Program-made: the position numbers and the translations under genes
Notes under the pieces: generated by a model
Databases searched by the model: none
Told to the model about the DNA's origin: nothing
Seen by the model: only the letters and a program-made list of their open reading frames with translations
DNA from: Blattabacterium cuenoti
GTDB lineage: Bacteria; Bacteroidota; Bacteroidia; Flavobacteriales; Blattabacteriaceae
Assembly (NCBI RefSeq): GCF_014252355.1
Contig: NZ_CP059217.1
Location: 1 to 64,000 of the forward strand
Length of the DNA stretch: 64,000 nucleotides
Direction of reading: 5' to 3'
Shown here: piece by piece, positions 1,315-53,250 of the stretch
Numbering within the stretch: the first letter of the stretch is position 1
How the letters are laid out: each line of letters starts with the position of its first letter

Positions 1315-3882
1315 ATGACTCATAAAATACGATTAAAAACAGTATTAACTAAATTAAATATCTCTTTACAAAGAGTGCTTGATTTTTTGAAAAAAAAAGG
1401 CATTAAAATAGAAAATAATCCTAATTCTAAAATTGAAGACAAAATTTATCAAATTTTAGTTAAAAAATTTCAATCTCAAAAAACAATTAGAGATAATTAT
1501 GAAAAAATTTTTTTAAAAAAAAAATTAGAAACTAAAAAAATTCAAAAAGAATTATCAAAATCTCAACCTAAAATTATTCGTGCTAAAATAAATCATTTTA
1601 TAAAATTTAAAAAATTAGGAAAAATAGATATTAATCAATATGATAAAGAAAAACAAGAAAGAACTAAAGATATTTCTAAATTAGAAATACATACTAATAA
1701 TTCTCGAATAATAGAAAAAAAACATAAAAAAAAACCAGAACATATAGACACAGTTTATCAAAAATTAGATGGTGTTATGTTAACTGGAGATAGAATTGAT
1801 TTATCTCAATTTGAAAAGAAAAAAACTAAAGTAAAAATTAAAACAAAACGAAAAAGAATTAAAAAAGAAATTTTAATTGATGATATCAAAAAAAGTAAAC
1901 AATTAAATAATAATAAAAAACATTATTCATACAAATTCGATAAACACAGAATAAAAAATAATAAAATAAAATTTGAAATTACTGATAAAGTAGTCAATAA
2001 ACAAATTAAAGAAACATTAGAAAAATTATCATCAAGAAATATTAAATCAAAATCATCAAAAATTAAAAAAGAAAAAAAATTACAAAAAAAAGAAAAAAAT
2101 AATTTATTAAAAGATAATAATAATACAGAAAAATCTATAAAATTAGCTGAATTTACTACTGTTAATGAATTATCATCTATGATGAAAGTTAATCCTGCAG
2201 ATATAATTGTTGCTTGTATGTCTTTAGGTATTATGGTTACAATGAATCAAAGATTAGATGCTGAAATTATTACTTTAGTTGCAGATGAATTTGGATATAA
2301 TGTAGAATTTGTAGGAATAGATTTAGAAGAATCTATACAACAACAAGAAGATATTATTGATAATACTACAGAACAAGATTTAATAACAAGACCTCCAATT
2401 ATTACCGTAATGGGGCATGTAGATCATGGAAAAACATCTTTATTAGATTATATACGACAAACTAATGTTATTGCAGGAGAATATGGAGGTATTACTCAAC
2501 ATATATCAGCTTATAATGTAAAATATAAAAATAATTATAGTATAACTTTTTTAGATACACCTGGTCATGAAGCATTTACAGCAATGAGAGCAAGAGGAGC
2601 TCAAATTACAGATATTGCAATTATTATGATTGCATCTGATGATCAAGTTATGTTACAAACAAAAGAAGCTATCAGTCATGCTCAAGCTGCAAATGTTCCT
2701 ATTATATTTGCATTCAATAAAATTGATAAATCAGAATCTAATACAAATAAAATACGAGAACAATTAGCTAATATTAATTTATTGGTAGAAGAATGGGGTG
2801 GAAAATATCCTTCACAAGAAATATCTGCAAAATTAGGGACTGGAATTGATCAATTATTAGAAAAAGTATTATTAATAGCTGAACTTTTAGAATTAAAAGC
2901 TAATCCAAAAAAAATGGCTACAGGTACAATTATCGAAGCTTCTTTAGATAAAGGAAGAGGTTATGTAACAACTATTTTAGTACAAAATGGAACTTTAAAA
3001 ATCGGAGATTATGTATTAGCAGGATTTCATCATGGAAAAGTAAAAAATATTTTAGACGAACGTGGAAAAAGTATTTCATCTGCTGTACCATCTCAACCAG
3101 TTACTATATTAGGATTAAACGGGACTCCTTCATCTGGAGATAAATTTAAAGTATTTTTAGATGAAAAATTTGCAAAACAATTAGCTACTAGAAGAGAACA
3201 ATTACAAAGAGAACAAAATATAAGATCTCAAAAACATTTAACATTAGACGATATAGGTAGAAGAATTGCATTAGGCAATTTTAAAGAGTTAAAAATTTTA
3301 CTTAAAGGAGATGTAGATGGATCTGTAGAAGCAATTTCTGATTCATTAGAAAAATTATCTACTAAAAATATTATGATCAATATCATTCATAAAGGTGTAG
3401 GTTCTATTACAGAATCTGATATTTTGTTAGCAAGTGCCTCAGATGCAATAATTATCGGATTTAACGTTCGTCCTACTCATGGGATCAATCATATAATAAA
3501 AAAAGAAAATATAGAAATACGAATTTATTCTATTATATATGATGTAATTAATGATTTTCAAGAAGCAATAAAAGGAATGTTATCCACTGAAATAAAAGAA
3601 AAAATTTTAGGAAATGCAGAAGTTAGAGATATGTTTAATATTCCTAAATTAGGAATTATCGCTGGATGTATCGTTACAGAAGGAAAATTAATTCGTACAT
3701 CAACAATTAGATTAATTAGAAATGGTATTGTAATTTATACTGGAGAATTAATTTCATTAAAACGATTTAAAAAAGATGTTAAAGAGGTATCAAAAGGATA
3801 TGAATGTGGTGTTATAATTAAAGATTATAATGATATACAAAATGGTGATATTATTGAAGTATATCAAAAATACTCTAAATAA
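1315..3882 (+). CDS. infB: Translation initiation factor IF-2
   Basis: IF-2 is the GTPase that places initiator tRNA on the 30S subunit and promotes subunit joining. The 855-residue protein begins with a small helical IF2N-like segment, then a very lysine-rich linker to about residue 280 and a second IF2N domain (about 280-345). The GTPase core follows, with G1 GHVDHGKT at 367-374, DTPGH at 414-418 and NKID at 468-471, then the beta-barrel and C-terminal domains. The lysine-rich linker encodes many A-runs but stays open. It sits downstream of nusA and 12 bp before aspS, probably in one transcription unit. Confidence 0.97.
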   Translation: MTHKIRLKTVLTKLNISLQRVLDFLKKKGIKIENNPNSKIEDKIYQILVKKFQSQKTIRDNYEKIFLKKKLETKKIQKELSKSQPKIIRAKINHFIKFKKLGKIDINQYDKEKQERTKDISKLEIHTNNSRIIEKKHKKKPEHIDTVYQKLDGVMLTGDRIDLSQFEKKKTKVKIKTKRKRIKKEILIDDIKKSKQLNNNKKHYSYKFDKHRIKNNKIKFEITDKVVNKQIKETLEKLSSRNIKSKSSKIKKEKKLQKKEKNNLLKDNNNTEKSIKLAEFTTVNELSSMMKVNPADIIVACMSLGIMVTMNQRLDAEIITLVADEFGYNVEFVGIDLEESIQQQEDIIDNTTEQDLITRPPIITVMGHVDHGKTSLLDYIRQTNVIAGEYGGITQHISAYNVKYKNNYSITFLDTPGHEAFTAMRARGAQITDIAIIMIASDDQVMLQTKEAISHAQAANVPIIFAFNKIDKSESNTNKIREQLANINLLVEEWGGKYPSQEISAKLGTGIDQLLEKVLLIAELLELKANPKKMATGTIIEASLDKGRGYVTTILVQNGTLKIGDYVLAGFHHGKVKNILDERGKSISSAVPSQPVTILGLNGTPSSGDKFKVFLDEKFAKQLATRREQLQREQNIRSQKHLTLDDIGRRIALGNFKELKILLKGDVDGSVEAISDSLEKLSTKNIMINIIHKGVGSITESDILLASASDAIIIGFNVRPTHGINHIIKKENIEIRIYSIIYDVINDFQEAIKGMLSTEIKEKILGNAEVRDMFNIPKLGIIAGCIVTEGKLIRTSTIRLIRNGIVIYTGELISLKRFKKDVKEVSKGYECGVIIKDYNDIQNGDIIEVYQKYSK

Positions 3883-49225: not shown

Positions 49226-50779
49226 ATGATGATTAAAAAAGTTTGTTCTTATATTGGATTAACTACAAAATATGAACCAAACACATGGGAAGAAGTTATT
49301 GGACAAAAAGAAATTATATATATTTTAAAAAATGCTATAAAAAAATGTTTTTTATCAAAAATGTTATTATTTGTTGGGATAAAAGGAATTGGAAAAAGTA
49401 CATGTGCAAGAATTTTAGTGCAAGAATTATCCTCATCAAATATTGTTCATAAATTTGAATTAAATGGTACATTAACATACTCTATTAATTATTTAAATTC
49501 AATAATTCATAAAATATATCATAATGTAAAAGAAGAAAAATTTTTGATAATACAAAATATTAATGATGTTTCTACCAATTTTATTGATATTATATTTCCA
49601 ATGTTTCATAAAATTCCATTAAACATGTTATTAATTATTTGCGCAAATAAAATAAATAAAATTGTAGAATATATTATGTCATCATTATCTTGTCAAATAT
49701 ATGAATTTAGTCCAATTTCTTTAAAAGAAAATTTTAACCATTTAAAAAATATTTCTAATAAAGAATCTATTAATATAGATAATGAAACTTTATTATATAT
49801 TTCTAAATATGGAAATGGATCTTTAATGAATTCTATGAATAAACTAGATCAATTATTATATTTTAATACTTTTTTAAATAAAACAATAACTAAAAAATTA
49901 GTGTTAAAAAAATTAGGAATATTAGATCCCATTTGTTATTTTAAAATAGTTGATTATTTATTAAATAATAATATTTATGATGTATTAATATTATTAGATA
50001 ATATTGTCAAAATGAATATTAGCAGTCTATTATTTATACAAGGGTTCATTAAACATTTGAGAATGTTATTGATATCTAAATTTTATTATTTAAATTTGAG
50101 TGTTCAAGAAAAAAATAATATTAAATCTTATATTCAACAATCAAAAAAAATATCTTCATTATGTATAATAGATAGTTTAAAAATTTTTTGTAAAATAGAA
50201 CATAAATTGTATTGTTTAATGAGCCAAAATATATTATATGATAATAAAAATTATTATAAATTAATTGAAACCTATATTTTATCATTATTTATGAAATATT
50301 TTATAAAAAATAAATCTTATTGTAATAATCAATATAAAATTCAAAATACAAATTTACACGATACTAAATTTTTTAGATATTTTTTAGAACAAAATTGGAA
50401 ATATTTTATAGAAAAAAATTCAAAAAAAATTAATCCTTATTATTTTAATATATTAAAAAATGAAATACAATTTTATATATTAAATAATAAAATTTTTTTA
50501 ATAAAACCTTCTATTATAAAAGATAAAGATTTATTAGTAATACATAAATCTTTTTTAGAAAAATTACAAAAACAATGTAATAATCAAAATTTTGAATTTG
50601 AAATTTTAACTAAACAATTAGACAATTTTTCAGTTGAAGAATATAATCTTTTATCTAAAAAAAATGAAAATATGAATCAATTAATAGATAGGTTTAAGTT
50701 AAAACTTAAATCTCCTTCTTCTATCCCTCCACCAATTACTTCTAATTCTATAGAAACTAAAATTAAAGATAATTATTAA
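49226..50779 (+). CDS. dnaX: DNA polymerase III gamma/tau subunit, degenerate ATPase
   Basis: DnaX is the ATPase of the clamp loader. The 517-residue protein keeps LTTKYEPNTWEEVIGQKEI and a P-loop GIKGIGKST (51-59). The four-Cys zinc module that should follow is deleted. Walker B DEVHMLS reads QNINDVS (110-116) and the arginine-finger motif LSRCQ reads LSCQ, with the Arg removed. The lid and collar domains (to about 330) are recognisable, and the tail is long and diverged. Position and flanking motifs leave little doubt about the family; ATPase function is doubtful. In the same frame as clpC, one stop apart. Confidence 0.85.
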   Translation: MMIKKVCSYIGLTTKYEPNTWEEVIGQKEIIYILKNAIKKCFLSKMLLFVGIKGIGKSTCARILVQELSSSNIVHKFELNGTLTYSINYLNSIIHKIYHNVKEEKFLIIQNINDVSTNFIDIIFPMFHKIPLNMLLIICANKINKIVEYIMSSLSCQIYEFSPISLKENFNHLKNISNKESINIDNETLLYISKYGNGSLMNSMNKLDQLLYFNTFLNKTITKKLVLKKLGILDPICYFKIVDYLLNNNIYDVLILLDNIVKMNISSLLFIQGFIKHLRMLLISKFYYLNLSVQEKNNIKSYIQQSKKISSLCIIDSLKIFCKIEHKLYCLMSQNILYDNKNYYKLIETYILSLFMKYFIKNKSYCNNQYKIQNTNLHDTKFFRYFLEQNWKYFIEKNSKKINPYYFNILKNEIQFYILNNKIFLIKPSIIKDKDLLVIHKSFLEKLQKQCNNQNFEFEILTKQLDNFSVEEYNLLSKKNENMNQLIDRFKLKLKSPSSIPPPITSNSIETKIKDNY

Positions 50780-50806: not shown

Positions 50807-52879
50807 TTGAAAAATAAAAATATATTTTGTTATTATAATGATGAAGATATAAATGATGAAAATACAACATTCGGGATAACAGAATCTAAACAAGGAATAT
50901 CAGAATTGAATTATTATGTAAATATCAATGCAATGACAAATAACACTCCAGTATTAGATAATTTTGGAAAAGATCTAAATGTTATTGCATTGGAAGGAAA
51001 ATTAGATCCTATAATTGGTAGAGAACATGAATTAGAAAGAATTGCGCAAATATTAAGTAGAAGAAAAAAAAATAATCCATTATTAATAGGAGAACCTGGA
51101 GTTGGAAAAACAGCAATAGCTGAAGGATTAGCTTTAAAAATTGTTCAAAAAAAAATATCTAGAGTTTTATATAATAAACGAATTGTGCTACTTGATATAG
51201 CTAGTATAGTTGCTGGAACAAAATATAGAGGACAATTTGAAGAAAGAATGAAAGCAATCATTTCTGAATCAGAACAAAATAAAAATTTAATTTTGTTTAT
51301 AGATGAAATACATACTATAATAGGAGCAGGAGGAACTACTGGATCTTTAGATGCGTCTAATATATTAAAACCAGCTTTAACTACAGGAAATATACAATGT
51401 ATAGGTACTACAACTTTAAATGAATATAGACAATATATAGAAAAAGATGGTGCATTAGAAAGACGATTTCAAAAAATTATAGTTCAACCATCAACAGAAC
51501 AAGAAACTATTGAAATATTAAAAAAAATTAAAGACAAATATGAAGGATATCATAATGTAATTTATACAGAATCAGCTATTAATGCTTGTGTCAAGTTAAC
51601 ATCTAGGTATATTATTGATCGTTATTTCCCAGATAAAGCAATTGATGCATTAGATGAAGCAGGTGCTAATGTCCATATGAAAAATATAAAAGTTCCAAAA
51701 AAAATCATTGATTTAGAAAAAATACTTTATAATATACAAAAAGAAAAACATCAAGCAGTTAAAAATCAAAAATATGAAGAAGCAGCTAATATAAGAGATA
51801 AAGAAAAAGAACTTAAAGAACAATTAATTAAAGATCAAATATTATGGAGACAAATTATTAAAAAAAATAAAGATATAGTATCTGAAATAGATGTAAAACA
51901 AGTAGTATCTATGATGAGTGGGGTTCCTATTAATAAAATAAATAAATATGAAATGAAAAAATTAAATATTTTAATATCTTTATTAAAAACTAAAGTAATA
52001 GGACAAGATCATGCAATAGAAAAAATAGTTAATTCTATACGAATCAATAAATCTGGATTAAAAGATCCTAATTCTCCAATAGGATCTTTTATTTTTTTAG
52101 GACAAACTGGAGTAGGAAAAACCTATTTAGCCAAAGAATTTACTAAAGAAATATTTGGATCAGAAGAATTTTTGATACGTATTGATATGAGTGAATATAT
52201 GGAAAAATTTTCTATGTCTAAATTAATAGGATCACCACCAGGATATATTGGTTATGAAGAAGGAGGCCAATTAACAGAAATACTACGTCGTAGGCCGTAT
52301 AGTGTAATTTTATTCGATGAAATTGAAAAAGCTCATCATGATATTTTTAATATTTTATTACAAATTTTAGATTATGGATATCTCACAGATAGTTTAGGTA
52401 AAAAAATCAATTTTAGAAATACTGTGATTATTTTGACTTCTAATCAAAATACAAATCAATTTAATAGAACAGAAATTGGATTTTCTAATAAAACAAAAAA
52501 ATTGAATGAATCCAAATATGCATTACAAAATATGTTTTCTGCAGAATTTTTAAATAGAATAGATGATATTATTATTTTTAATCCTTTAACATATAAACAT
52601 ATTGCTCAAATTACATTATTAGAATTAGAAAAAATAAAATATCATTTACTTGAATTAGGATATAATTTAACGATTTCTTTAGAAACACAAAAATTTATTC
52701 AAAAAAAAGGATTTGATAAAAAATATGGTGCAAGGCCACTTAAAAGAGCTATAAATACATTTATAAAAAATCCAATTTCGGAATATATTATAAAAGGTTT
52801 AATCCAAAATGGAAATATCATTAAATTAGTAATGAATAAAAATAATAATAATATTAAAATTAATATTATTAATAAATAA
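50807..52879 (+). CDS. clpC: ClpC-type AAA+ unfoldase lacking the N-domain
   Basis: A Clp ATPase that feeds unfolded proteins to ClpP. The 690-residue protein has both AAA+ domains: Walker A GEPGVGKTA (95-103) and GQTGVGKTY (432-440), Walker B FIDEIH and LFDEIEKAH, and a short UVR/M-domain (about 310-350, QKYEEAANIRDKEKEL). The usual N-terminal substrate/adaptor domain of about 140 residues is missing: the frame opens after the dnaX stop and starts in the linker. The start is TTG 50807, or ATG 50933 (residue 43). A VGF/IGF-type ClpP-binding loop is plausible at EIGFSNK. Confidence 0.92.
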   Translation: MKNKNIFCYYNDEDINDENTTFGITESKQGISELNYYVNINAMTNNTPVLDNFGKDLNVIALEGKLDPIIGREHELERIAQILSRRKKNNPLLIGEPGVGKTAIAEGLALKIVQKKISRVLYNKRIVLLDIASIVAGTKYRGQFEERMKAIISESEQNKNLILFIDEIHTIIGAGGTTGSLDASNILKPALTTGNIQCIGTTTLNEYRQYIEKDGALERRFQKIIVQPSTEQETIEILKKIKDKYEGYHNVIYTESAINACVKLTSRYIIDRYFPDKAIDALDEAGANVHMKNIKVPKKIIDLEKILYNIQKEKHQAVKNQKYEEAANIRDKEKELKEQLIKDQILWRQIIKKNKDIVSEIDVKQVVSMMSGVPINKINKYEMKKLNILISLLKTKVIGQDHAIEKIVNSIRINKSGLKDPNSPIGSFIFLGQTGVGKTYLAKEFTKEIFGSEEFLIRIDMSEYMEKFSMSKLIGSPPGYIGYEEGGQLTEILRRRPYSVILFDEIEKAHHDIFNILLQILDYGYLTDSLGKKINFRNTVIILTSNQNTNQFNRTEIGFSNKTKKLNESKYALQNMFSAEFLNRIDDIIIFNPLTYKHIAQITLLELEKIKYHLLELGYNLTISLETQKFIQKKGFDKKYGARPLKRAINTFIKNPISEYIIKGLIQNGNIIKLVMNKNNNNIKINIINK

Positions 52880-52890
52880 TTTCATTATAA

Positions 52891-53250
52891 TTAAAAAGGT
52901 AAATCATCAAAATCATCAGATGATAACGATGGGGATATCATTTTTTTAGAATTTACTATATTATTAGAAGTAGAAGAATGAATATTTTCAATTTTCCATC
53001 CTTGAATAGAATTAAAATATTTAATTATTCCCTCTGGATTTTTCCATTCTCGTCCTCTAATATTAATAAAAACTTTAATTTTATCTTTCAATTTTATAGA
53101 TTCTAACAAATCTACTTTATCTTGAATAAATTCTATTAATATATTTTGAGGATATGGTTCTTCTGTTGTAATAACAATTTCTCTTTTTCTAAATCCACTG
53201 CCAAATTTTTGTATTTCAAATAATTTTTTTATTCTGCCTATGATTTCCAT
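52891..53250 (-). CDS. DUF3127 (OB-fold, SSB-like) protein
   Basis: A 119-residue protein of the Bacteroidetes DUF3127 family: RKREIVITTEEPYPQNILIE, LKDKIKVFINIRGREW and YFNSIQGWKIE. The fold is likely an OB-fold related to SSB. The last residues DDFDDLPF resemble the acidic SSB tip that recruits DNA-repair and replication partners, so a nucleic-acid role is plausible but unproven. It lies convergent to clpC and downstream of the SPFH gene. Confidence 0.85.
   Translation of the reverse strand: MEIIGRIKKLFEIQKFGSGFRKREIVITTEEPYPQNILIEFIQDKVDLLESIKLKDKIKVFINIRGREWKNPEGIIKYFNSIQGWKIENIHSSTSNNIVNSKKMISPSLSSDDFDDLPF

Follow-up and report, generated by a model that had tools for sequence, protein, structure and literature searches.

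A DnaX clamp-loader protein without its ATPase residues is kept under purifying selection in most Blattabacterium

What can a clamp-loader subunit do once the residues that make it an ATPase are gone? DnaX normally uses ATP to load the ring that keeps the DNA-copying enzyme in place, and such ATP-driven clamp loading is regarded as nearly universal in cellular DNA replication. The window, the first 64,000 nucleotides of the single-contig Blattabacterium cuenoti genome G000 (567,420 bases), raises this question at 49226-50779 on the plus strand, where an ATG-started frame of 517 amino acids lies with sucC on one side and a ClpC-type gene on the other. The original prediction had read this intact frame as a DnaX that lost Walker B, zinc module and arginine finger. 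Its top profile matches were DnaX equivalogs (NF011531, 1.7e-40; TIGR02397, 3.7e-35; both under the curated cut-offs), and the best Foldseek rows for its structure model were all E. coli clamp-loader chains, with 3glf_D at 6.5e-14. The folds of the AAA+ base, the lid and the helical collar were retained in the model (pLDDT 72). A better fit to another AAA+ family or a second, normal dnaX had been named as grounds for dropping the prediction. No such fit was found by profile or by fold, RuvB, RFC and generic AAA matches being weaker than those to DnaX, and a profile search of the window genome returned no second dnaX (its weaker matches were RuvB- and Clp-sized frames). The frame is a DnaX orthologue, by profile and by fold, and the sole copy in its genome.

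To place the motif losses, DnaX was aligned across 46 readable sequences from a set of 49 Blattabacterium genomes, each of its own species (contigs of about 511-642 kb), and 10 free-living Flavobacteriales, in which GKT, DE, SRC and the sensor-2 Arg were present in 10/10. The following positions are all on the plus strand of the window. The P-loop (GIKGIGKST, residues 51-59; 49376-49402) had been described as surviving, which holds for its Lys (Lys57), kept in 46/46 genus sequences, and not for the metal-binding Thr position that follows it in Walker A, which is Asn in 41, Ser in four and His in one. Judged from the alignment, Ser58 of the window is probably secondary, since the sister genome (G036) has Asn. 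Walker B is lost as predicted: the strand (LIIQNI, residues 107-112; 49544-49561) reads on as LIIQNINDVS, with DE changed to QN at residues 110-111, and across the genus the Asp is found in 1/46 and the Glu in 7/46, never both together. At the sensor-2 Arg position (residue 201; 49826-49828) the window has Met, and the Arg is found in none of the 46. The Arg of the SRC, or arginine finger, segment is missing (LSC at residues 154-156; 49685-49693), as had been claimed, but it was replaced and not simply deleted, within a segment carrying a two-residue insertion (SSLSCQ in the window, SSLYCQ in the sister); it is kept in 27/46 and lost in 19/46, with at least seven changes in the genus. The combined motif states are thus GKS, QN and LSC in the window and GKN, QN and LYC in the sister. 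The four-Cys zinc module is likewise absent from the window protein, but its loss had to be discarded as a symbiont trait, because 9/10 free-living members also have no Cys there and the module is therefore not diagnostic in Flavobacteriales.

The wider alignment gave the same picture. The free-living sequences share 116 invariant columns as far as residue 345. Of these, 23 were conserved in 90% or more of the Blattabacterium sequences (among them K15, Y16, P18, G26, Q27, G51, G54, G56, K57, C60 and A61), and 31 were essentially lost, including the Walker A Thr, the Walker B Asp and the sensor-2 Arg. On this alignment the motif losses are genus-wide and date to the genus ancestor, and are not the decay of one copy. 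We place the window lineage late on the path of loss, because its SRC Arg is also gone and its DnaN is very divergent (TIGR00663 E-value 6.8e-10, Pfam domains under cut-off). The sensor-2 loss, the genus-wide pattern, and the losses of holA, holB and a DnaE motif described below all go beyond the original prediction.

A search for holA and holB had been suggested, and all 49 genomes came out negative for both genes with profiles built from flavobacterial HolA and HolB, as did 37 genus genomes with TIGR01128 and TIGR00678; the delta and delta' profile matches were limited to dnaX, to Clp- or RuvB-sized AAA+ frames and to weak scattered spots. DnaE (above the family cut-off) and DnaB were present in 49/49. 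The free-living DnaE carries a Q-x-S-[LIM]-F stretch in 9/10 and E-x-SLF in 1/10, which we take, from knowledge of bacterial DnaE, to be the clamp-binding motif. QxSLFG is missing from DnaE in all 49 Blattabacterium; at this place in the alignment they have a Lys-rich linker. The window genome and its sister (L213, L214) have lost a second DnaE segment as well, [SA]HPLD, which directly follows the position of that motif and is kept in nearly all other Blattabacterium and in the free-living set; in G012 (L280) it is altered. The clamp gene dnaN was found with a genus profile in 41/49 genomes, four of these matches being broken or split (G018, G064, G002, G004). It is absent in eight; in seven of them pdxH adjoins pheT with no intervening dnaN, and in the eighth, G026, pdxH is missing too. 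A DnaN homologue above the family cut-off is present in G069 (L061). In earlier reports, dnaN was not found in Blattabacterium strain Bge (PMC2768785) and one Blattabacterium had a dnaN pseudogene (PMC6039017).

Despite these losses, dnaX has remained a coding sequence. Between the window genome and its sister, YN00 omega was 0.234 for dnaX and 0.15 for its AAA+ base, compared to 0.144 for sucC, 0.077 for clpC, 0.17 for dnaE and 0.60 for dnaN; the 182 dnaX differences included no stop, while 13 were expected if the same changes were placed at random sites. Across a 12-genome clade, dnaX omega was 0.279 (base 0.250, lid 0.271, domain III 0.287, C-domain 0.304), a weaker constraint than on sucC (0.138) and clpC (0.056, 11 genomes), with dnaN at 0.292 (10 genomes); omega fixed at 1 was far worse for each gene, with topology and kappa held fixed. 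The dnaX genes of four genomes that lack dnaN (G009, G010, G017, G029) fitted best near omega 0.25 in a likelihood profile at kappa 4 (lnL -4202.9, versus -4259.0 at omega 1); automatic F3X4 fits for this clade stopped at omega 1.000, which we take as failed optimisation, and F1X4 models gave 0.04-0.37. For G009 versus G010, YN00 omega was 0.216, with no stops against 18 expected. A chance open frame or recent pseudogene is ruled out by these pairwise comparisons (0 stops vs 13-18 expected). Overall, dnaX is under purifying selection, with omega about 0.2-0.3 (NG86 values run higher, 0.35-0.8), also in the clade without a clamp gene. The test proposed with the original prediction, whether relatives share the motif losses while selection stays purifying, has therefore come out in its favour.

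We slightly favour the reading that the module for clamp loading came uncoupled in the ancestor of the genus and that DnaX persists as a hydrolysis-free scaffold, because the catalytic residues, both partner subunits (delta, delta') and the clamp motif of DnaE have disappeared, yet selection is purifying and the fold is kept. DnaX would have become a pseudo-ATPase by the common ancestor of Blattabacterium, no longer serving as the clamp-loader motor. The collar (domain III, residues 223-345; 49892-50260), helical in the model, would hold DnaX copies together as an oligomer, the AAA+ base would serve as an immobile platform, perhaps still able to bind nucleotide by way of the invariant P-loop Lys, and the C-terminal domain would keep DnaE and/or DnaB attached at the fork; clamps still present would be loaded passively or be on their way out. 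Of what was first proposed, an altered loading or a structural-only role is still the best fit, with the losses being older than was thought and extending to the partner proteins.

The main rival to a structural role, which we infer to be the best reading, is slow decay: DnaX function, holA, holB and the clamp motif of DnaE would have been lost together, leaving a weakly constrained relic frame that vanishes lineage by lineage. The losses and breaks of dnaX in G020, G021, G022 and G063, its weaker constraint than that on sucC and clpC, and the relaxed dnaN of the window pair are as expected from such a course. We nevertheless consider it unlikely, as omega is well below 1 in every DnaX domain, stops are absent across deep divergence, the P-loop Lys is kept throughout, and the motif losses are older than the genus radiation, and a neutral frame would not have stayed open for so long.

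The distribution of the two genes also bears on what DnaX does. At least 36 genus genomes have both dnaX and dnaN, and five have an open dnaX without dnaN (the four above and G026). In G022, dnaX is cleanly absent, with about 205 bases between the sucC and clpC frames, and dnaN is intact; G020 lacks dnaX as well, and the dnaX of G021 is ruined. The minimum numbers of changes, on a quick SucC+ClpC tree with several open forks, were three for dnaN loss, three for dnaX loss and seven for the SRC Arg. Since dnaX was lost or ruined in three lineages, any scaffold role is dispensable there, which counts against the scaffold reading, as do the weaker constraint on dnaX than on sucC and clpC, the weak resemblance of its C-terminal domain to tau domain V, and the dnaN omega of 0.29 in one clade; given that purifying selection on dnaN, some clamp function may remain.

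An alternative explanation is that a DnaX homo-oligomer, possibly nucleotide-bound, acts as a minimal loader that passively puts DnaN together on DNA or keeps it there, with no delta and no ATP turnover. The invariant P-loop Lys, the many genomes with both genes and the constrained dnaN of one clade are consistent with this. However, yeast RFC needs the Walker B Glu for clamp and DNA binding, and mutants in it lose ATP-dependent binding of both (PMC3740443). It is also difficult to reconcile with the five genomes that have dnaX and no dnaN (in four of which DnaX is jointly constrained), with dnaN lacking dnaX in G022, and with the loss of the DnaE clamp motif in all 49, and we rate it as improbable. 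Normal loading by a delta and delta' that have diverged beyond detection or come from the host is very improbable: holA and holB evolve fast and a few symbionts and organelles do import host proteins, but two independent profile sets gave no candidate frame, and the losses of the DnaX ATPase and the DnaE motif would be left unexplained.

Two further features were seen near dnaX. A DUF3127 protein (52891-53250, minus strand) ends in SSDDFDDLPF, a tail that we presume resembles the acidic SSB tip recruiting replication proteins. In G020, G021 and G022, a candidate endonuclease III-like frame of 213-232 amino acids lies between the ClpC-type and DUF3127 genes; it is missing from the window at 52879-52891.

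The C-terminal domain that would provide the tether (residues 380-500; 50363-50725) has homologues in the C-termini of DnaX from free-living flavobacteria (best i-E 3e-6 for its profile). Its model was alpha/beta (pLDDT 78), and the top structural rows included 4tps (SirA-DnaA domain I) and 8a3v (DnaB-DciA complex), both at Z < 8 and maybe reflecting a mere common arrangement; no structural row reached Z >= 8, and E. coli tau domain V (2aya) was a weak match (Foldseek E 0.34). DnaX would perhaps bind DnaE or DnaB through this conserved domain.

In four Blattabacterium, dnaX is broken into two frames precisely at the gamma/tau boundary, both halves still coding (L028:2569-2586 in G023; L029, minus strand, near 2572-2586 in G003; L207 near 3068 in G061; L205 near 3027-3074 in G063). 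The break falls at an A11 tract in three and a T10 tract in one, and in-frame A10-A16 tracts lie at the same boundary in several relatives. Slippage may join the halves, and has been proposed for Blochmannia dnaX (PMC3017870). In 5/10 free-living Flavobacteriales, a short gamma-like frame stops at an A10-A12 tract, with the C-domain in another frame (L037:1255-1283, L040:1222-1295, L041:1224-1303, L042:1211-1242, L043:1084-1277), an arrangement suggesting that slippage or frameshifting produces tau there. A reversed gamma/tau layout has been mentioned for a few other bacteria (PMC5009743).

Compared to other bacterial DnaX (free-living Flavobacteriales; E. coli 3glf and 8gj0), the window protein is alike in AAA+ base, lid and domain III, and shares its C-terminal domain with the free-living flavobacterial proteins; Blattabacterium differs in the missing Walker B DE, Walker A Thr, sensor-2 Arg and, in 19/46, SRC Arg, and in having no delta or delta'. 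A non-catalytic subunit is known from the eukaryotic loader RFC, namely Rfc5, in which the Walker B Asp is Asn and the trans Arg finger is missing (PMC3740443), but Rfc5 acts beside four active ATPase subunits, whereas in Blattabacterium every copy of the sole loader ATPase is affected. Loss of the module itself is known from smaller symbionts: Carsonella has lost dnaN, holA, holB and dnaX (PMC2175510), Evansia holA, holB and dnaX (PMC4122945), Portiera of Bemisia tabaci dnaQ, dnaX, dnaN, holA and holB (PMC5322561), and Uzinura dnaN, dnaX and dnaQ; Sulcia has dnaN without dnaX, the same state as G022, and Walczuchella still has both delta and delta' (PMC3971599). Carsonella, Evansia, Portiera, Uzinura and Sulcia resemble Blattabacterium in missing clamp-module genes while keeping dnaE, but they lack dnaX outright, whereas in most Blattabacterium, whose genomes are about double the size, a catalytically dead DnaX is still maintained by selection. 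In the open-licence literature we found no description of such a conserved, ATPase-dead DnaX, or of the DnaE motif loss, in Blattabacterium.

We tentatively propose, although the evidence falls somewhat short of making it probable, that the whole genus copies its chromosome with a motif-less DnaE and no loader ATPase, and in eight species with no clamp, DnaX being a conserved, hydrolysis-free replisome scaffold whose task is separable from clamp loading. The genus forms a graded series, from a dead loader with a clamp, to a dead loader without a clamp, a clamp without a loader, and neither, which makes functions of DnaX independent of clamp loading directly testable, and makes accessible the question of how DnaE without a clamp tether copies a chromosome of some 0.6 Mb.
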